From a virus: a stretch of 29,617 bases of DNA. The stretch is from positions 1-29,617 of the IMG/VR virus record IMGVR_UViG_3300009177_000093. One strand, given 5' to 3'. The notes beneath the pieces are model-generated. The model was not told the DNA's origin. It ran no database searches and was given only the letters and a program-made list of their open reading frames with translations. The translations under genes were made by a program, and so were the position numbers. This document shows positions 1,020 through 28,681 of this stretch, piece by piece (within the stretch, counting starts at the first letter, position 1; each line of letters opens with the position of its first letter).

Positions 1020-1032
1020 TACAACCACAACC

Positions 1033-1073
1033 GAGCGGGCGAAGCGGCGACGTGCCCGCACCTTCGCCCGCTC
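1033..1073. repeat. Dispersed 41-bp hairpin repeat, copy 1 (reverse orientation)
   Basis: The outer arms GAGCGGGCGAAG and CTTCGCCCGCTC pair over 12 bases around a short inner hairpin. The stop codon of the 1072-1290 gene is TGA formed with the outermost base of this repeat. It lies between that gene and the HNH gene downstream. Confidence 0.85.
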
Positions 1074-1290
1074 ACTCGCCGGCCGTTGCCGCGGCCGGTT
1101 TCCGTTTCCGCAAGGCGTTGCGGCTGACGACGGCTTGCGCGCCGTCTTCAAACTCAATCAATGCCGAATTTAAGGCGCCGCGGGCGAGCACGCGGCAATG
1201 CTCGCCCTTGCGATCGAGTTGCAAGAGCGGCGACGACTTCGGCCACTGCTTCAAGCGCGGCCCCCAAGAGTACACATATTCGTAATCCAT
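1072..1290 (-). CDS. Small phage protein of unknown function (72 aa)
   Basis: An ATG start at 1290 follows GGAAA on the minus strand. The product is basic, with a central stretch QLDRKGEHCRVLARGALN and then SALIEFEDGAQAVVSRNAL, which suggests a small beta-barrel (KOW- or SH3-like), although no family was recognised. The stop codon abuts hairpin repeat 1. It is the first minus-strand gene after the plus-strand DUF29/HTH pair and is divergent from it, so it needs either its own promoter in 1291-1382 or readthrough from the genes to the right. Coding is supported by codon use like that of its neighbours and by its fit between the repeat and the divergent promoter. Confidence 0.7.
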   Translation of the reverse strand: MDYEYVYSWGPRLKQWPKSSPLLQLDRKGEHCRVLARGALNSALIEFEDGAQAVVSRNALRKRKPAAATAGE

Positions 1291-5360: not shown

Positions 5361-6788
5361 TTATGTTTTGGATTCGGCTTCGGCGAGTATGGCGCGAGCC
5401 CATGCCCGATCGCGCGGCGTTGCGACGGCGTACGTAAGGTATGCGCGCGCCGCTTCGCAGTCCCGTTCCAGATCGGCCGGCGCCTGCTCACGCGCGAGCG
5501 AATGCAAGGCGCCGACGACGGCCGACGGCATCGAACGCATCAGCAAGCCCGTAAGCGATCGCACGCGTATACCAGGCGACGTATCGTCCACACGGCGCCA
5601 CTCCTGCAGCTTCATGCGGACGATCAATACAAACTCCCGCGGCGTGAGCTCGGGATTGCGCGCGATCGACGCGCGCCACATGCGGCCGGCCGCGTCATCG
5701 TCGATTTGCAGAGCTTCGCCGATGCGTGTAGCAGGGTCCAGAAAACGTGCTAAATACGCGTTTTCGGTTTCGGCCGGCAACGGCGAGCGGGCGCCCGTCG
5801 TCGTCGGTTCTTTTATGTTTCTTGTTTCAATGCTTACGAGCGGCGAAGCCGTTGATAAATGAGGACATGCCCAATTCCAAGGGCAGTAGGTTTCAGGTTT
5901 TTTGCAATTAGCTTCGTCGGCGACTGTAGTTAACTTCAGTTCTGGCGGTAGTGTCGTTCGTATATCTCCACGGGCAACAACGAGATATACGCCAGAATCC
6001 ATTGCGCCTGTTCGTTCGTCGCCTTGTCCACTTCCAATGCCGCTATCAGGTCCACCGTTGCCGCATTCCGCTTTATCCGTATGCCCGTCGCATCCCACGA
6101 TACGAACGGCTCCAACGCGCTCCGTTTCTGCAGAACCTCCGGACTCAGCCCGACACTCGCCCATTTCCTCGTCAGGCCGTCCAGGTAATTGTCTTTCCGC
6201 GCTTTGAATTTCAACCGAAATTTCCTCATTTCCTATTGAAGTTAACTTCACTGATTCGCCAGCGGCCGGCGCCATCAGAGCGGCGATCGACGCTGCGGCA
6301 TGAACCGCCGCGGCCTTCGTTCTTTGCCGGCACGTACGCGCGGCCGGCAACGGCGCCTTATCGAAATTCTCCGGACACGCCTTCACTCCTCCCCGACCAT
6401 CGAACGCGATAAACGCCTTTTCTCTCAGTGCCGCAAGCGCGAGAAAAATCATCCGCTTCGACTTGCCAGTAAGCATCTGGTACTCGATTATCGAAATCTG
6501 CGCGTACTCCGGACGCCTCGCCGCGGACTCGGTTTCTCCCATGATGAACTGGACAATCGGCAGTTCAATACCAGATGTTCGACGCACGAGCGGATAAAAA
6601 ACGCTCCGATACATTTGAATCCAACCACCCCTAAATGGCAATTCCGAAATCGGAGTTTGCGGTCTCTTAACGGAATATTCGTTATCAGAAGTCGTTGAAT
6701 TATTTGAAGAAAAATCGCTTCGCGAAGCGGATTTTCTGTTGGGAGTTGCCCGATCGTCTGTTATACTCGTTGCAGTTTCAGGCCGCAC
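5361..6788 (-). CDS. Replication initiator-like (lambda O type) protein carrying an inserted segment
   Basis: The 475-aa frame starts at GTG 6788 with GAGG eight bases upstream. Residues about 55-140 (GWIQMYRSVFYPLVRRTSG, then ISIIEYQMLTGKSKRMIFLA) look like the winged helix of phage replication proteins such as lambda O. A long low-complexity linker follows, and the C-terminal third (AYLARFLDPATRIGEALQID, then LTPREFVLIVRMKLQEW) is a helical region of the kind that recruits helicase or its loader. Residues about 180-285 come from a 312-base insert bounded by 11-base direct repeats (see that entry), which keeps the frame open. Upstream lies a 458-base region with several inverted repeats that could hold the origin. 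Function is inferred from fold pattern and position; no helicase or polymerase gene is in the window. Confidence 0.6.
   Translation of the reverse strand: MRPETATSITDDRATPNRKSASRSDFSSNNSTTSDNEYSVKRPQTPISELPFRGGWIQMYRSVFYPLVRRTSGIELPIVQFIMGETESAARRPEYAQISIIEYQMLTGKSKRMIFLALAALREKAFIAFDGRGGVKACPENFDKAPLPAARTCRQRTKAAAVHAAASIAALMAPAAGESVKLTSIGNEEISVEIQSAERQLPGRPDEEMGECRAESGGSAETERVGAVRIVGCDGHTDKAECGNGGPDSGIGSGQGDERTGAMDSGVYLVVARGDIRTTLPPELKLTTVADEANCKKPETYCPWNWACPHLSTASPLVSIETRNIKEPTTTGARSPLPAETENAYLARFLDPATRIGEALQIDDDAAGRMWRASIARNPELTPREFVLIVRMKLQEWRRVDDTSPGIRVRSLTGLLMRSMPSAVVGALHSLAREQAPADLERDCEAARAYLTYAVATPRDRAWARAILAEAESKT
5928..6250 (-). mobile_element. 312-bp insert flanked by 11-bp direct repeats inside the replication gene
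   Basis: The 11-mer AGTTAACTTCA (plus strand) occurs at 5928-5938 and 6240-6250, exactly 312 bases apart (104 codons). The segment between them carries a complete gene in a different frame, whose stop codon TGA is formed by the right-hand repeat in the direction of transcription. Near that end is a strong inverted repeat, GTATATCTC/GAGATATAC plus TCTGGCG/CGCCAGA (5941-5996). There are no terminal inverted repeats and no transposase. Codon choice inside (CTG for 6 of 11 Leu, AGG Arg) differs from the surrounding genes. The structure suggests an acquired element whose entry preserved the host frame. Confidence 0.5.
5936..6229 (-). CDS. Nested gene of unknown function inside the replication gene (97 aa)
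   Basis: The ATG at 6229 has AGGAA immediately before it. The product is basic at its start (MRKFRLKFKARKDNYLDGLT), has a folded-looking middle (KWASVGLSPEVLQKR, then FVSWDATGIRIKRNAATVDL), and ends WILAYISLLPVEIYERHY. Hydrophobic residues are spaced as in a real globular protein, and third positions are GC-rich in this frame. In the overlapping host frame the same stretch is glycine-, acid- and cysteine-rich and looks unstructured. Family not recognised. The whole gene fits between the two 11-bp repeats, so it is probably the cargo of the insert. It could be a nuclease, an antirepressor or a selfish gene; nothing seen decides. Confidence 0.6.
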   Translation of the reverse strand: MRKFRLKFKARKDNYLDGLTRKWASVGLSPEVLQKRSALEPFVSWDATGIRIKRNAATVDLIAALEVDKATNEQAQWILAYISLLPVEIYERHYRQN

Positions 6789-7246
6789 GGTAATACCTCA
6801 AAGCTTCCCGTTTTCGGCCTTCATTGACGGCGCGATGGTTGCACATCGCGCCGTTTTCGCGTCTAGATGACGGAAACGGCGTCAAGAGTCCGAAAACTTT
6901 TTCGATCGTGTTTACGATATCACAATAGCCCAACATTCGGTTAACCCCCATGTTGGACGCCGCTTACGGCAGAATTGCGGTTACACGCGAGACGGCGCCC
7001 GCCGATCGGGATTCAACCGGCCGGCACCCGATGTTGGCGCCGTAATATCCCCCACAGTGTGAGCCCGAAAGCACGCACCTGCAGACGACGGGGAGTCCGT
7101 CTTCGGTGGACTGATGCGGGGAATTTCCCCCCGCAAACCACTTCCCTGCCCCGACCAAGGTACAGCAAAATGTAACCGAGACAAGGCTAACGCCAATTTC
7201 ACGTGGAAGTCAACGCGAAGAAATCGCGAAGAAAAGGCAAAATCGC
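6789..7246. promoter_or_regulatory. Non-coding region with several inverted repeats; candidate replication origin or control region
   Basis: No coding frame in these 458 bases is convincing. They contain an 11-bp perfect stem (6827-6837 with 6844-6854) followed by T's on the plus strand, an inverted repeat CCAACAT/ATGTTGG (6930-6936, 6950-6956) with a third ATGTTGG at 7031-7037, ATCGT/ACGAT around 6905-6917, and TGCGGGG/CCCCCGCA at 7115-7135. The region lies directly upstream of the replication-initiator-like gene. That position and the clustering of hairpins fit an origin or a structured leader. The plus-strand terminator-like hairpin has no obvious gene to terminate. Confidence 0.4.
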
Positions 7247-7723: not shown

Positions 7724-7742
7724 TGCCCGAGAATAGCAGAAT

Positions 7743-7783
7743 GAGCGGGCGAAGGTGCGGACAGTCCGCCGCTTCGCCCGCTC
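7743..7783. repeat. Dispersed 41-bp hairpin repeat, copy 3
   Basis: Near-consensus copy (ACAG in the inner loop) with perfect 12-base outer arms. Its right end supplies the TGA stop of the 7782-8003 gene. It separates that gene from the HTH gene downstream. Confidence 0.85.
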
Positions 7784-8003
7784 ATTGGCGCAACAACAAA
7801 ATTGCGGTCCACATTTCGACGGCTGCACGGCTCAAGCCGGCCGGCAACGGCGCGCCGATCGCCGCGGCTTGCGCTGATATGTGGATTTGCGGTTCCGGCC
7901 CGTCGAAATCGCGTGACGAAATCTCAAACTGAATCACGCCGGCTCGGGCGAGTTCGTCGAGCACCGCGACAACCTCGCGCCGGCGCGCCGCCCGCTCACT
8001 CAT
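7782..8003 (-). CDS. Hypothetical phage protein (73 aa)
   Basis: The start ATG (8003) overlaps the upstream stop as ATGA. The product runs MSERAARRREVVAVLDELAR, AGVIQFEISSRDFDGPEPQI, ending AAVEMWTAILLLRQ. It looks like a small winged-helix-like or alpha/beta protein; family not recognised. Translation is coupled to the 8000-8242 gene, and the stop lies in hairpin repeat 3. Confidence 0.7.
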   Translation of the reverse strand: MSERAARRREVVAVLDELARAGVIQFEISSRDFDGPEPQIHISAQAAAIGAPLPAGLSRAAVEMWTAILLLRQ

Positions 8004-10601: not shown

Positions 10602-10608
10602 TGTTTTT

Positions 10609-10678
10609 CCTTCGCGCTTTTAAGCCTCGCGGCTGTCGTCTACTCTTTTAGTATGCTTGACGTGAGCGGAATTGTCAA
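10609..10678 (-). promoter_or_regulatory. Early promoter and leader, copy A
   Basis: Minus-strand TTGACA (10678-10673), 17-base spacer, CATACT (10655-10650). The 6-bp inverted repeat CTTGAC/GTCAAG spans the -35 box and spacer and is a likely operator. The leader to the start codon (TAGACGACAGCCGCGAGGC, then TTAAAAGCGCGAAGGAAA) is nearly identical in copies A, B, C and D. Confidence 0.85.
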
Positions 10679-10693
10679 GAGAATTTTTTGAAT

Positions 10694-10734
10694 GAGCGGG
10701 CGAACGGGCGAAGATTCCGCACTTTCGCCCGCTC
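10694..10734. repeat. Dispersed 41-bp hairpin repeat, copy 5 (reverse orientation)
   Basis: It lies between the end of the 10740-10994 gene and promoter A, i.e. at a transcription-unit boundary, 15 bases from the -35 box. Outer arms GAGCGGGCGAA and TTCGCCCGCTC. Confidence 0.85.
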
Positions 10735-10739
10735 GCGGT

Positions 10740-10994
10740 TTAGAACGTGAGGAACGCTCGCCGGCAAGCGTCGCCGCAATAGATCGAATCAAGGCGAGCG
10801 GGCGCCGCCTTGCAGTTCACGCACGCCGGCGCCGCATACTCGGCGCCGTTCCAGTGCAGTTCAACCTCGACGAAGCGCGAGCCGTTCCAGCGATCGACGA
10901 CGACGACGCGCGGCCGGCCGGCCGGCTCGGGCGCCGCGGGCGCCACCAGGCGCCCTCCGGTTGATACGCTGGCCATGAAGTCGGCCGCGGTCAT
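10740..10994 (-). CDS. Small protein with a C-terminal zinc-binding motif (84 aa)
   Basis: The start ATG (10994) overlaps the stop of the upstream gene as ATGA. After MTAADFMASVSTGGRLVAPA and a central VVVVDRWNGSRFVEVELHW, the C-terminus holds CVNC and YCGDACRRAF, a four-cysteine zinc ribbon of the form C-x2-C...C-x3-C. This may bind nucleic acid or act as a protein adaptor. It is the second gene of the unit from promoter B. Family not recognised. Confidence 0.75.
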   Translation of the reverse strand: MTAADFMASVSTGGRLVAPAAPEPAGRPRVVVVDRWNGSRFVEVELHWNGAEYAAPACVNCKAAPARLDSIYCGDACRRAFLTF

Positions 10995-11242
10995 GCTGCC
11001 ACCTTGCACGCGGCCGGCGCAAGCGCCGCGGCGAGCTCGGCGAGCGTATCGCCGGCAAGGTGAGTGCTCACCCACATGACGCGCGCCACGCCGTCGGCGT
11101 CGTCGCCGTCTTCAAATGCGTTGAGCTCCCACGCAAAGCCGTAATCGCCGCTCAAGTCTACATAGCGATCGCCGGCGTGATTCTGAAAGCCGGCGCCGTA
11201 CCGCGTCCAACCGTTGCGTTTGAGGTAATTGCTCAGTTCCAT
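10991..11242 (-). CDS. Small early protein (83 aa)
   Basis: First gene behind promoter B. The product starts MELSNYLKRNGWTRYGAGFQ, continues NHAGDRYVDLSGDYGFAWEL and has an acidic FEDGDDADGVARVMW. It looks like a compact alpha/beta protein with an acidic surface, in the size and charge range of phage DNA mimics or host-takeover proteins, but no family was recognised. Its stop is coupled by ATGA to the zinc-ribbon gene. Confidence 0.75.
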   Translation of the reverse strand: MELSNYLKRNGWTRYGAGFQNHAGDRYVDLSGDYGFAWELNAFEDGDDADGVARVMWVSTHLAGDTLAELAAALAPAACKVAA

Positions 11243-11248
11243 TGTCTT

Positions 11249-11321
11249 TTTCCTTCGCGCTTTTAAGCCTCGCGGCTGTCGTCTACTCTTTTAGTATGCT
11301 TGACGTGAGCGGAATTGTCAA
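11249..11321 (-). promoter_or_regulatory. Early promoter and leader, copy B
   Basis: TTGACA at 11321-11316, 17-base spacer, CATACT at 11298-11293, with the same inverted repeat and leader as copy A, including the GAAGGAAAAAG ribosome binding site. It drives the 11242-10740 pair. Confidence 0.85.
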
Positions 11322-11335
11322 GAGATTTTTTAAAT

Positions 11336-11376
11336 GAGCGGGCGAAGGTGCGGAGAGTCCGCCGTTTCGCCCGCTC
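11336..11376. repeat. Dispersed 41-bp hairpin repeat, copy 6
   Basis: It lies between the end of the 11385-11729 gene and promoter B, mirroring the position of copy 5 at promoter A. Confidence 0.85.
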
Positions 11377-11384
11377 GATCGCCT

Positions 11385-11729
11385 TTAGAACGGGCAATCG
11401 TCGCCGGCGCCCGCGGCGAGCATCTTAACGGCCGGCGCGAACGTCCACCGAATCTCCAAAACAACCGGCTTGCGGCGCACGGCAACCGCGGCGATCGCCG
11501 CGGCGTCGCCATCTTCCGCGGCATCCATCATCGCCTCAAGATGCGCCATGCATTCGTCGCACGCGTAAACCAGGCTCACGGTACCAGGCACGCGGTTTAA
11601 GTCGCTTACGACTTCGCCGCAATTGTCGCAAGTGTTGACCGCGGCATAGCAAAGCGCGTCGTCGTAATTCGCTTCGGTGATCGTGCCGGCCGCTTTGCGG
11701 CTGTTCAGGTTTTCAGTAAAGAGATTCAT
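11385..11729 (-). CDS. Small early protein with a zinc-finger-like motif (114 aa)
   Basis: Directly behind promoter C. The product has an N-terminal MNLFTENLNSRKAAGTITEA, then CDNCGEVVSDLNR and YACDECMAHLEAMMDA, so two CxxC pairs about 20 residues apart, a probable zinc site. A helical alanine-rich stretch and VLEIRWTFAPAVKMLAAG complete it. The C-terminus is GDDCPF. No family recognised. It appears to be a single-gene unit ended by hairpin repeat 6. Confidence 0.75.
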   Translation of the reverse strand: MNLFTENLNSRKAAGTITEANYDDALCYAAVNTCDNCGEVVSDLNRVPGTVSLVYACDECMAHLEAMMDAAEDGDAAAIAAVAVRRKPVVLEIRWTFAPAVKMLAAGAGDDCPF

Positions 11730-11737
11730 GCTTTTGT

Positions 11738-11808
11738 TCCTTCGCGCTTTTAAGCCTCGCGGCTGTCGTCTACTCTTTTAGTATGCTTGACGTGAGCGGA
11801 ATTGTCAA
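11738..11808 (-). promoter_or_regulatory. Early promoter and leader, copy C
   Basis: TTGACA at 11808-11803, 17-base spacer, CATACT at 11785-11780; leader and inverted repeat as in copies A and B. It lies just downstream of a canonical terminator, so it starts a new unit. Confidence 0.85.
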
Positions 11809-11818
11809 GCGCGAATGG

Positions 11819-12708: not shown

Positions 12709-12717
12709 TTGGTTTTT

Positions 12718-12789
12718 TCCTTCGCTCTTTTAAGCCTCGCGGCTGTCGTCTACATTTCCAATCATACTTGACTTGAGCGGACGTGTCAA
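12718..12789 (-). promoter_or_regulatory. Early promoter and leader, copy D
   Basis: TTGACA at 12789-12784, 17-base spacer and TATGAT (5 of 6 consensus) at 12766-12761. The CTTGAC/GTCAAG inverted repeat is kept although the bases between its arms have changed, which argues that the arms are under selection. The leader differs slightly around the start of transcription. Confidence 0.88.
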
Positions 12790-12861
12790 GCGATAGCGCA
12801 AAAAAAGATTGCGGCCGGCGCCGGTGGACAACCAAGCACCGCTCAAGTTAAGCTAAAAGGT

Positions 12862-13107
12862 ATGAAAAAAGAGACGAAGAAAAAGAACCCGCACGCCGTT
12901 GCACTCGGGCGATTGGGCGGATTAAAAGGCGGGAATGCGCGAGCCGAAGCGTTGAGCGATGCCCAGCTATCGGCGATCGGACGAATGGGAGGGCGCGCTG
13001 GTGGACCCGCGCGAGCCGCGGCGCTTACGCCGGCGAAGCGTAAGGCGATCGCGCAGAAAGCCGCGGCCGCACGTTGGGCGAATAAAGCCGAACCAAACGC
13101 AGAATGA
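12862..13107 (+). CDS. Small Gly/Ala/Lys-rich protein (81 aa)
   Basis: The product begins MKKETKKKNPHAVALGRLGG, then LKGGNARAEALSDAQLSAIG and a second copy-like segment MGGRAGGPARAAALTPAKRK, ending AAAARWANKA. The motif RLGGLKGG.AR...LS is that of a small, very basic protein common in bacterial genomes and phages, of unknown role, perhaps nucleic-acid binding. The two halves look like an internal duplication. AAAAGG lies just before the ATG. It is divergent from promoter D and its TGA stop is formed with hairpin repeat 7. Confidence 0.75.
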   Translation: MKKETKKKNPHAVALGRLGGLKGGNARAEALSDAQLSAIGRMGGRAGGPARAAALTPAKRKAIAQKAAAARWANKAEPNAE

Positions 13108-13146
13108 GCGGGCGAAGGTGCGGAGATTCCGCCGCTTCGCCCGCTC
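13106..13146. repeat. Dispersed 41-bp hairpin repeat, copy 7
   Basis: Perfect 12-base outer arms with GATT in the inner loop. It contributes the stop codon of the preceding gene and ends 19 bases before the -35 box of the brnTA promoter. Confidence 0.88.
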
Positions 13147-13165
13147 GTTTATTTTTGCCGAACGG

Positions 13166-13785: not shown

Positions 13786-13814
13786 AAACCAGGCGAGCCC
13801 CCAAAACGCAAAAC

Positions 13815-13855
13815 GAGCGGGCGAAGGTGCGGAGAGTCCGCCGCTTCGCCCGCTC
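13815..13855. repeat. Dispersed 41-bp hairpin repeat, copy 8 (consensus)
   Basis: Matches the consensus in full. It lies between the convergent ends of brnA and the 13884-14177 gene, so it could act as a two-way boundary. Confidence 0.9.
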
Positions 13856-13883
13856 GTTTTGTTTCCGGCCGGCCGGCGCCGGC

Positions 13884-17503: not shown

Positions 17504-17527
17504 CGTTTTTCCCCTTTTCCTCTAATT

Positions 17528-17568
17528 GAGCGGGCGAAGGTGCGGAGAGTCCGCCCGTTCGCCCGCTC
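17528..17568. repeat. Dispersed 41-bp hairpin repeat, copy 9
   Basis: Variant with CCGCCCGTTCGCCCGCTC at the right arm. It supplies the TGA stop of the tail hub gene and sits within the late operon between it and the 134-aa gene. Confidence 0.85.
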
Positions 17569-20224
17569 ATACCGTCTCGCGTGGCGGGAATATCGTCCCG
17601 TCGGCGAGCGTGTAACCCGTTATCAAGCCGCTAACGACGTTGAGCGGCCGGCCGGCCGGCACCGTGCCGGTGAAACTGGCATTGCCCGTAACCGCGAAGC
17701 CCGAAGCGCGCACCTGGCCGGTGAAGCCGTCCAAAAAAATCATCAGCGAACCGCCGTTGTTTACCGTGAGCTCGCCGGCGTTTTCATGGCCGGCCGTCGG
17801 CGAGCGGACGAACGCGCCGGCCACACTTCCGCCACTCCCCTTGAGCACGAGTCCGCGGCTGACAAGCGATGCCGTCGAATCGGCCGGCTTCGCAACGCGC
17901 CATTCAATCGAGCCGTACGTGGCATCGTACGTCGTCGGACTCGACGCAATCGAACTGCCTTCGGCCGGCGTGCCCGTCGCGCCGGTGATCGTAAACGACG
18001 CCTGCCGGATAAACAACGAGCCGGCCGTGTTCGTATAGATCGGCGCATTGCTGTATTCCGTACCGCCGAAGCCGGCGAGCCGCCCCCATACGCCGAAATA
18101 GGTGTTAGCCGGCACGCCGGCGCCGCCCATATCGCCGAGCAATGCAACCAGATTTTGCGACGTGTCGTAAACGGCGACGCGCGCCGGCTTGTTTGAGCCG
18201 TACCCTACGGCAAGCTCGATCGTTGATAGCTTATCGGATGTAATCGAGCCGGCTTGGATCTTAGCGGCCGTGACGGAGTTTGCCGCGAGCTCATTTGCCG
18301 TGATCGCGCCCGCGGCGATCTTGCCGGCGATGACGGCGCCCGCGGCGATCGCGCCGGCCGTTACCGAGTCGGCCGCAAGGTTGCCGGCGACGACGGCGAG
18401 CGCGGCGATTTTGCCCGCTACCACCGAGTTTGCGGCGAGAGCTTGCGCCGTGACGCTGTTTGCCTGCAGAGCTTGAGCATAGATCGCGTTCGCCGCCACT
18501 GCGTTAGCCGTGACTGATCCGGCCGCAAGCTCGGTTGCTGTCACGGCGCCCGCGGCGATCGCGTTTGCCGTGATTGCATCCGCGGCGACGGCGCCGGCCG
18601 TGACGGAGTTTGCCGCGAGCGCGTTTGCCGTGACTGCGCCGGCTTGTATCTTTTCGGCCGCGATCGCATTTGCCGCGATCGCGTTTGCCGTGACGCTCGA
18701 CGCCGCGAGCTTCGGCGCCTGAATCGCGCCGTCCGGTATCTTTGCCGTCGTAACGGCGCCGTCGGCGATCGCCGATACCGTGACGGCGCCAACGTCGATT
18801 TGCGGCGCCCGTATCGCGCCCGTCGGTATCTTCGCCGTGACAACCGAGCCGTCGGCAAGTACCGTACTCGTGACGCTACCAGGCGCAAACTGGCTTGTTT
18901 TTAATTGCCCTTCAATGTCGGCCGTATCAACAACCGCCGTCCAATCGTTGCCGGTTCGCCGGTACAATTTCCGATCGGCCGTGTTGAGGAAAACCGCGTC
19001 GGCCGGATACTGCGCCCATTCCGCGCCGGCCGGCTTGTGATTGACGGTATAAACCGGCGCAATGCCCGCGGCGAAGTCGTCGCCCTCGATCGTTCCCGGC
19101 GCGATCGACGCGGCCGGCGCCTTGGTCGCCTGCACTGGTACGCGTTGCATCCGGCGCAACATGTACACCAGATCGGGCGGACGACTCCCGAGCGTCGCCG
19201 AGTACTTGAGCTTATGGCCGGCCGTCGTCGGCCGCGATCGGTCCGGCGCCATAATCGTAATCGTGAGCGATCGCAGAATCAGCGATGTAACCAGGCCATA
19301 TTTCCACGCCTCGATTTCGACCGTCATTCCGCGCGCAAGCCCTGGCACAAAGCAACCGGCCTGTATCGTGTATTTCGGCGTGGAACGCAACCCCACTTCG
19401 GTATCGGCCCAAAGCGCCGCCGTCGCCGCGTCGGTCAAATTCCGATCAACGAGCGTAACCGAGAGCACGCCGAATTGCGCTTGACTCCCGGTATCTTCGG
19501 CCGTCGCGCGCAGTTCGCCGGCGTCGCCGACGGCGCCGAGCACCAGCACGCGGTTTGCGGCGTCGCTGAAATCGCGCGTATAGCTTTCGAGCTGATACGC
19601 TTGTGTCGTCGAGCCGTCCGGCCGATCGGATAAACCGAACGGCGCCACGATCGAGCCCGCGGCGTAGTAATTGACCTTGCCGTTATAGCCTACATTCCAC
19701 TCGCCGCCCGTCAACTGGCAAATACTGTCGAGCAAATCGCGGACGCGTTGGTCTTTCGCCTCGATCAATCCAAGGCTCGCCGTAAGCGTGATAATCGAGC
19801 CCGCGGAAAGCTCCGGTACTTGCTTGATCGCATCGGCAATAATCGTTGAATCCGGCGTGCCGTCCGGCCAACTTTGGGTAATCAACGCCCGCTCAAACAG
19901 AATCCCCCAATCGGACGCGTGTACCGTTAGCCGTATGTGCGGCCCTTCGGCGTCGCGATCAACGGCGAGAATGAAGCCGGCAAACTGAATTTGCGTCGTA
20001 TCTTCATCCCATATAACAAGCTCGTCCCATTCGTTGACCGTCCACGTGTACTGAAAAGATGCGTGATCGTATTGCGCGTGATCGTAGCGCGACTCGCCGA
20101 ACCGCTGAAACAACGTAAGCTCACACGTCGAAATCGCTTCGCTTGAATCCTGTTGGATTGTGGCGGATTCTACTAACGCGGCAACCGATACGTCAAAGCC
20201 GGCGACGGCCGCGCGCAATCTCAC
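17567..20224 (-). CDS. Tail tip / hub protein with a long Ala-rich repeat (885 aa)
   Basis: The gene starts at GTG 20224, overlapping the tape measure stop as GTGA. Residues 1-330 (STCELTLFQRFG, WDELVIWDEDTTQIQFAGFI, then DLLDSICQLTGGEWNVGYNG) resemble the gp27/Tal-like hub at the end of siphophage tails. Residues about 440-665 are near-regular repeats of the type xxAxAITANAIAAGAVTA, more than twenty in number, likely a stacked or triple-stranded shaft. The end (SSIASSPTTYDATYGSIEWR, then GFTGQVRASGFAVTGNASF) resembles phage fibre tip domains. The plus-strand 83-aa gene at 24765 and the 109-aa gene at 26129 contain the same repeat unit. The TGA stop is part of hairpin repeat 9. Confidence 0.8.
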   Translation of the reverse strand: MRLRAAVAGFDVSVAALVESATIQQDSSEAISTCELTLFQRFGESRYDHAQYDHASFQYTWTVNEWDELVIWDEDTTQIQFAGFILAVDRDAEGPHIRLTVHASDWGILFERALITQSWPDGTPDSTIIADAIKQVPELSAGSIITLTASLGLIEAKDQRVRDLLDSICQLTGGEWNVGYNGKVNYYAAGSIVAPFGLSDRPDGSTTQAYQLESYTRDFSDAANRVLVLGAVGDAGELRATAEDTGSQAQFGVLSVTLVDRNLTDAATAALWADTEVGLRSTPKYTIQAGCFVPGLARGMTVEIEAWKYGLVTSLILRSLTITIMAPDRSRPTTAGHKLKYSATLGSRPPDLVYMLRRMQRVPVQATKAPAASIAPGTIEGDDFAAGIAPVYTVNHKPAGAEWAQYPADAVFLNTADRKLYRRTGNDWTAVVDTADIEGQLKTSQFAPGSVTSTVLADGSVVTAKIPTGAIRAPQIDVGAVTVSAIADGAVTTAKIPDGAIQAPKLAASSVTANAIAANAIAAEKIQAGAVTANALAANSVTAGAVAADAITANAIAAGAVTATELAAGSVTANAVAANAIYAQALQANSVTAQALAANSVVAGKIAALAVVAGNLAADSVTAGAIAAGAVIAGKIAAGAITANELAANSVTAAKIQAGSITSDKLSTIELAVGYGSNKPARVAVYDTSQNLVALLGDMGGAGVPANTYFGVWGRLAGFGGTEYSNAPIYTNTAGSLFIRQASFTITGATGTPAEGSSIASSPTTYDATYGSIEWRVAKPADSTASLVSRGLVLKGSGGSVAGAFVRSPTAGHENAGELTVNNGGSLMIFLDGFTGQVRASGFAVTGNASFTGTVPAGRPLNVVSGLITGYTLADGTIFPPRETV

Positions 20225-25649: not shown

Positions 25650-25652
25650 ACC

Positions 25653-25701
25653 GAGCGGGCGAACGGGCGAGCCGGCCGCACCTTCGCCCGCCCGATCGCC
25701 G
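25653..25701. repeat. Hairpin repeat copy 10 (reverse orientation, variant)
   Basis: GAGCGGGCGAACGGGCGAG on the left and CCTTCGCCCGCCCGATCGCC on the right, with GCCGGCCGC in the middle. It lies between the convergent ends of the 25401 gene and the 25702 gene. Confidence 0.75.
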
Positions 25702-28310: not shown

Positions 28311-28681
28311 AACGGGTCTACTCCGGTTTGATCGGCGAGCCGCAACCACTCGTGTATGTCCGATGCTGTCTTGAGCCCGTCAACGCCGGCGCGCAACGCC
28401 GCGAGCGCCGCGGCGCCGGCCGCGTCCTGCATCGGGTTCATATCCCACGCCGGCGAGTCGATCCACTGTTTGAAGTACGCGCGAATTAGCTCATAGTCGC
28501 GATCGCTGAGAGATTCGACGCGTAATAGCTTGCCGATCGACGCCGCGAGCTCGCCGCCCGTCTCATAAGTCCAGTACTTCGGCGCCGCTGGATCGCTCGG
28601 CAACGGCAGCGACGGATTGAGCGGGCGATTGTGCGGAGTGTCCGCCCGTTCGCCCGCCCGTTCGCCGCGTTTCCCCCTCAT
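28307..28681 (-). CDS. Conserved phage protein with a translated hairpin repeat at its N-terminus (124 aa)
   Basis: The ATG (28681) overlaps the upstream stop as ATGA. The first 20-odd residues (MRGKRGERAGERADTPHNRP) are encoded by hairpin repeat 11. From about residue 34 the product is a regular protein: PKYWTYETGGELAASIGKLL, DRDYELIRAYFKQWIDSPAW, DMNPMQDAAGAAALAALRAG and IHEWLRLADQTGVDPL. I recall similar proteins without the N-terminal extension between capsid and connector genes in other phages, of unknown function. The repeat thus appears to have extended a structural-cassette gene in frame. Confidence 0.72.
   Translation of the reverse strand: MRGKRGERAGERADTPHNRPLNPSLPLPSDPAAPKYWTYETGGELAASIGKLLRVESLSDRDYELIRAYFKQWIDSPAWDMNPMQDAAGAAALAALRAGVDGLKTASDIHEWLRLADQTGVDPL
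28619..28667. repeat. Hairpin repeat copy 11, inside a coding sequence
   Basis: GAGCGGGCGATTGTGCGGAG followed by TCCGCCCGTTCGCCCGCCCG. Left half as in the consensus; the right arm has a CGCCCG expansion. It lies in the first codons of the 28307-28681 gene. Confidence 0.75.

Follow-up and report, generated by a model that had tools for sequence, protein, structure and literature searches.

In an uncultivated tailed phage, a gene that resembles the O initiator gene of phage lambda in its layout probably carries an internal replication origin and, within the part encoding its linker, an optional and replaceable second gene in the +1 frame, whose product would be an accessory early protein. The window (the whole stretch of 29,617 bases that was analysed, which is the entire virus record) has a GC content of 60% and contains terminase, tail, and capsid genes. 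Slightly upstream of the terminase gene lies the host gene, a candidate lambda-O-like replication initiator, at 5361-6788 on the minus strand; it encodes 475 aa from GTG 6788, and its true start is possibly further in. The nested gene is found on the same strand at 5936-6229.

According to our proposal, the initiator, in which a long disordered linker joins an N-terminal winged-helix DNA-binding domain to a helical C-terminal domain, would bind two palindromes (the inferred iterons) and open an AT-rich tract, with the origin placed inside the gene, as in lambda. A ribosome on the initiator mRNA would synthesize the initiator, and initiation at an internal start, with its own ribosome-binding site, would yield a small +1 protein of ~92 aa that is encoded between the palindromes and ends at the second one. 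The linker may tolerate the nested gene because little beyond an open frame is required of it. In other words, the same region would have three uses: as a disordered linker in the host frame, as a folded small protein in the nested frame, and as binding sites at the level of the DNA. During phage recombination, the nested gene would travel with the DNA-binding domain and the palindromes.

The host gene and its relatives

The phage and genome collections searched yielded no homologues of the host protein; these came only from IMG/VR contigs, designated L002-L008, L009, and L010 (L004 and L005 carry the same gene). Three further loci, L021, L024, and L049, were added through their terminase neighbours. 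The carriers of a nested gene, all of them uncultivated contigs, number four for the first family, family A (the window, L002, L003, and L009), and two for a second, family B (L006 and L021). Distant terminase relatives (~50% identity) have other initiators, or no visible ones, upstream, and no further nested genes were found there.

In an AlphaFold model, residues 61-140 of the host protein (6369-6608, minus strand) form a winged-helix-like N-terminal domain (pLDDT 58-89 by block), and residues 342-472 (5373-5765, minus strand) form a helical C-terminal domain, which is identical in L003 and 75% identical in L006. The region between them that encodes the disordered linker covers residues 150 to ~283 (5939-6338, minus strand), with disorder extending up to residue 350; the pLDDT is below 40 for most of residues 150-350, and the linker is the least conserved part of the host frame. 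Fold comparison of the N-terminal domain lists winged-helix DNA-binding domains, with a best Z of 8.7 that is not specific. A profile comparison with eight lambda-O-like N-termini gave 79 aligned columns with an E-value of 2.3e-4, as a single comparison, and a probability of 44%. Three of the six family members have weak matches to phrog_678, "replication initiation O-like" (best E 0.019), and the matches of the host-protein family to O-like and DnaD-like proteins are weak in general. It is by its layout, as modelled, that the host protein can be called O-like, as a candidate rather than an established member of the O family.

Two conserved features near the 5' end of this gene should be mentioned. 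An AT-rich patch, TCAACGACTTCTGATAACGAATATTC, at ~6672-6698 on the minus strand, is kept as DNA even in L004, despite a shifted frame; it is possibly a site recognized as DNA, unless the true start of the initiator lies downstream of it. Upstream of the gene, a ~200-nt leader (~6790-6985, minus strand) is conserved in five relatives and contains predicted hairpins with paired changes, GGCGCGATG...CATCGCGCC in some relatives and GGCACGATG...CATCGTGCC in others, with a double change at 7 of the 51 predicted pairs. It is possibly a structured leader or an attenuator.

The nested gene

At this locus, one gene lies wholly within another in a different frame. The sequence-only reading had reported a 97-aa ORF at 5936-6229 on the minus strand, and we found it as described: it runs from ATG 6229, in host frame +1, to a TGA stop codon at 5936-5938 inside the second of two repeats, and the host frame (5361-6788) is open through it. 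TTG 6214, which would give 92 aa and aligns with the starts of the homologues, is likely to be the better start; the aligned family A starts are TTG in the window and GTG, GTG, and ATG in the others. The start codon in the window is a weak one. GAGGA, a candidate ribosome-binding site, is located 8 nt before it (6223-6227, minus strand). The homologous ORFs of family A, at 5626-5901 in L002, 5572-5859 in L003, and 3703-3975 in L009, are all in host frame +1.

The coding signal that had been proposed for the 97-aa frame is borne out by these three relatives, where this frame is more conserved than the host frame. In all six family A pairs, similarity is higher in the +1 frame than in the host frame (identity 0.23-0.57 versus 0.17-0.44). 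When two disjoint pairs were pooled, the nested region had 91/93/69 differences at host codon positions 1/2/3, compared with 173/161/304 for the flanks (p 1.7e-7 by chi-square). In other words, host positions 1 and 2 of the nested region vary at least as much as position 3, which is the opposite of the flanks. The similarity of the nested proteins also exceeds that in host-preserving codon shuffles, with Z values of 5.0-9.5 for family A and 9.9 for family B, and none of 1000 shuffles reaches the observed value in the seven pairs. These shuffles preserve both host proteins, but not the shared ancestry at host third positions, so that their Z values overstate selection; the contrast in frame between this region and the flanks carries more weight.

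The family B gene offers a comparison of the same kind. In L006 and L021, a different +1 ORF occupies the same slot and is 39% identical over 105 columns between the two (E 3e-14), whereas their host proteins are ~20% identical in the flanks. In all six carriers, the host and nested frames contain no stops and the third frame contains 6-8; for the host frame, which is thus open across the overlap in six of six, the chance product is 9e-7 if the carriers were independent, which related sequences are not. Insertions and deletions preserve the nested frame. An AlphaFold model of family A, made with four sequences, consists of helices and a beta hairpin, with a pLDDT of 81-91 over residues 31-90, and the host stretch encoded by the same DNA does not fold in its own model. 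The contrasts in codon position and frame similarity, the resemblance within family B, the preserved frame, and the modelled fold make it very improbable that the host frame alone codes and that the conservation of the nested frame comes from a constraint on the DNA (the structure of an origin) or on the host protein, an explanation that the position of the region within the candidate origin and the length of the ORF would otherwise suit. The length by itself is not significant, as a +1 ORF as long occurs in 18% of synonymous-codon shuffles (P = 0.18), and P is 0.15-0.21 across the four family A carriers. From the comparison of the sequences, we consider that the nested frame is under selection for its protein.

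A Foldseek search of the family A model against the PDB and viral models gave no match (best E 2.6 and 1.1, respectively), nor did sequence searches of solved structures, and no convincing family was found for either nested protein in Pfam, PHROGs, NCBIfam, or PADLOC. An Rfam match to Pyrobac-1 in the nested region scored 23.6 bits against a threshold of 40 and was taken as a chance match.

Two further features had been attributed to the nested gene. The interrupted stem at 5941-5996, regarded as marking its 3' end, does fold (-19.2 kcal/mol, z -2.1), but at the equivalent position of three relatives the fold is no more stable than in shuffled sequences (z 0.7, 0.5, and 0.0), so the stem is probably due to chance. 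The leucine codons are as counted (CTG in 6 and TTG in 5 of 11), but they are no clear sign of foreign origin, because they follow from a preference for codons ending in G: in five nested ORFs for which it was determined, this base occupies 50-63% of third positions, compared with 28% in the rest of the host gene and 36-42% in three other genes of the window.

The palindromes and the candidate origin

The 11-bp sequence AGTTAACTTCA is present at 5928-5938 and again at 6240-6250, with the period of 312 bp that had been given for it. The match can be extended to 14 bp (5925-5938, TGTAGTTAACTTCA; 6237-6250, TGAAGTTAACTTCA), and in this longer form, which the sequence-only reading had missed, it is a palindrome, with one mismatch in the 5925-5938 copy; it can therefore be named a direct or an inverted repeat. 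Its core, AGTTAACT, occurs twice in the whole window, both times at this locus. We designate the two candidate iterons I1 (TGAAGTTAACTTCA, 6237-6250) and I2 (5924-5939, CTGAAGTTAACTACAG on the minus strand, with one mismatched pair); I2 holds the stop codon of the nested gene.

With strict scanning, nine of 12 loci were found to have repeated palindromes inside the initiator gene. There are three in L002 and L003, the third copy being outside the interval that corresponds to the window's pair. Among relatives, the palindromes vary by symmetric paired changes: the sequence is TGCAGTTAACTGCA in L002, TGCATTTAAATGCA/CACTGCATTTAAATGCAGTG in L009, TGAAACGGGTTTCA/GTGAAACGGGTTTCAC in L006, and TGAAAATATTTTCA/GTGAAAATATTTTCAC in L024, and GCGAACTCCAGTTCGC occurs twice in L049. 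Such changes are as expected for protein-binding sites. It is very unlikely that the repeats are kept instead for the peptide they encode, as a short protein-protein motif in the linker. All copies do lie in the same host frame, and the peptide is similar, LKLT[S/T/A]V, in the window, L002, L003, L004, and L007; nevertheless, it is ETGFT in L006, ENIFP in L024, and LHLNAV in L009, where the DNA is still palindromic, and symmetry is meaningless at the peptide level. Because the encoded peptides differ between groups, the symmetry is a property of the DNA.

After the last palindrome comes the AT-rich tract ATTGAAACAAGAAACATAAAAGAAC (5807-5831, minus strand), a candidate unwinding element. It is 76% A+T in a genome that is 40% A+T, but an equally AT-rich stretch is found in 4.5% of 160-nt windows. 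An AT-rich 25-mer (68-80% A+T) lies within 160 nt in 11 of 11 loci, but is equalled in 3-25% of windows elsewhere. The DNA of the tract is conserved across a one-base slip in reading frame that separates L002 and the window from L007 and L009. By itself, the tract is weak evidence for an origin. The anatomy of the window and its relatives, with inverted-repeat palindromes in the linker-coding part, matches that of a lambda O-type internal origin, and by this analogy the palindromes resemble iterons to which the initiator would bind, in an origin located within its own gene.

The sequence-only reading had interpreted the same interval differently, as a mobile mini-element of 312 bp that carries a gene of its own and is inserted without breaking the frame; the 11-bp repeats would then be its ends or target duplications. 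A gene that is present in some relatives and absent from others, with a repeat on each side, would agree with this. However, homologues without the gene were then expected to lack exactly 104 residues and to be joined at a single TGAAGTTAACT site, and the gene-less L004, L005, and L007 retain two palindromes, 90 or 69 nt apart; the repeats are thus not a target duplication. Their palindromic nature and symmetric changes, the third copy outside the interval in L002 and L003, and the position of the family B gene, upstream of all the palindromes seen in its loci, also argue against the element. There is one copy of it in its own record, and the nested protein was found in no setting other than this gene in the collections searched. 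Overall, the mobile mini-element is hardly credible. What stands is that there is indeed a second gene, read in another frame and not present in every relative, and that the host frame stays open across it in all six carriers.

Other repeats are scattered over the window. An imperfect palindrome of ~42-60 bp, GAGCGGGCGAAG...CTTCGCCCGCTC, which resembles REP-like repeats, occurs in relatives and at ten sites in the window (1032-1081, 2273-2334, 7739-7784, 10689-10741, 11335-11386, 13095-13147, 13814-13856, 17525-17569, 25652-25701, and 28615-28667); one copy in a relative (L002, 5513-5561) is located in the initiator linker and keeps the frame open. Repeats of ~76-82 bp, 84-100% alike, at ~10604-10679, 11247-11322, 11733-11809, and 12712-12793, lie just upstream of several small minus-strand genes (starting, for example, at 11242, 11729, and 12708) and are perhaps a repeated early promoter or leader.

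Apparent exchange at the linker and comparison with known systems

The comparison of the window with L003 reveals a mosaic boundary. From 32 nt past the start of the last palindrome, the two differ by one mismatch in ~2.6 kb; before that palindrome, the shared fraction is 37% for the nested protein and 55% for the host protein's N-terminal part. The DNA-binding domain, the nested gene, and the palindromes therefore look as if they had been exchanged as a unit, with one edge of the exchanged block at the last palindrome. In L006, the nested gene is unrelated to family A although the C-terminus of its host protein closely matches that of the window, and a profile comparison of families A and B found no relation between them. 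Neither family was found in five distinct relatives (L004/L005, L007, L008, L024, and L049). Given these unrelated genes, empty loci, and the boundary with L003, the linker appears to be a place where dual-coded accessory genes can be exchanged for one another.

It is unlikely that the nested protein is instead a core partner of replication, such as a helicase loader or an antagonist of the initiator. Its coding within the initiator gene, with expression from the same mRNA to be expected, and its exchange along with the DNA-binding domain and the palindromes would be in keeping with such a role, but the five distinct relatives do without either family (including L007, which is similar to L002 in its DNA-binding domain and palindromes), and an unrelated family occupies the same slot. 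Since some phages lack the gene and others have an unrelated one in its place, an accessory role is likelier than a core one; the product, an early protein made from the initiator mRNA, would most likely be a replication modulator or a host-takeover factor. A further speculation, which we hold only tentatively, is that the linker/origin part is a dedicated slot for out-of-frame cassettes (A, B, and perhaps more), which would be swapped in host frame +1 in every case, the iterons delimiting the exchange. Their products would act on replication itself; one might be a brake linked to the origin, or a specificity factor, that is passed on along with its iterons.

In one phage group, then, the same site of a gene holds one nested gene, another that is unrelated but uses the same frame, or neither, and the same DNA holds candidate origin sites. 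If our proposal is true, dual-coded cargo can be accommodated in the disordered linker of an initiator, and it becomes testable how a gene of this kind comes in, which of the two frames is the older, and how three constraints are combined in the same DNA. Annotation programs that disallow nested genes would miss such proteins.

In lambda, the inverted-repeat iterons are located in the middle of gene O, adjoining an AT-rich tract (PMC7466680, PMC3349717). The candidate shares with lambda O a predicted winged-helix-like N-terminal domain, a linker, and a C-terminal domain, as well as inverted repeats in mid-gene, followed by what may be the equivalent of its AT-rich tract. It differs in that lambda O has four iterons 20-24 nt apart, whereas two or three palindromes of different sequences lie 54-330 nt apart here, and also in its much longer linker, the weak sequence similarity, and the nested gene. 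No gene is annotated inside O in the lambda record consulted, and in the open-licence papers searched no initiator of the lambda O type was described as containing a nested gene.

Among nested overlaps in general, the +1 shift is the commoner one, and the conflict between the two proteins is milder when one of them is disordered (PMC8227390). A second product encoded inside a replication initiator gene is also reported for plasmid pIGRK, where one gene yields two in-frame Rep proteins with antagonistic functions (PMC6854812). The second pIGRK protein is in frame with the first, whereas the nested protein here is read in another frame and has no sequence in common with the host protein.

The presence of a gene wholly inside another in a different frame is shared with phage phiX174, in which E lies within D. 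In the same phage, B is nested in A, the replication initiator gene. In contrast to phiX174, the phages considered here are tailed dsDNA phages of ~30-34 kb, without the pressure of a tiny genome, and their nested genes occupy an optional slot that is used by two unrelated genes and is bordered by candidate origin palindromes.
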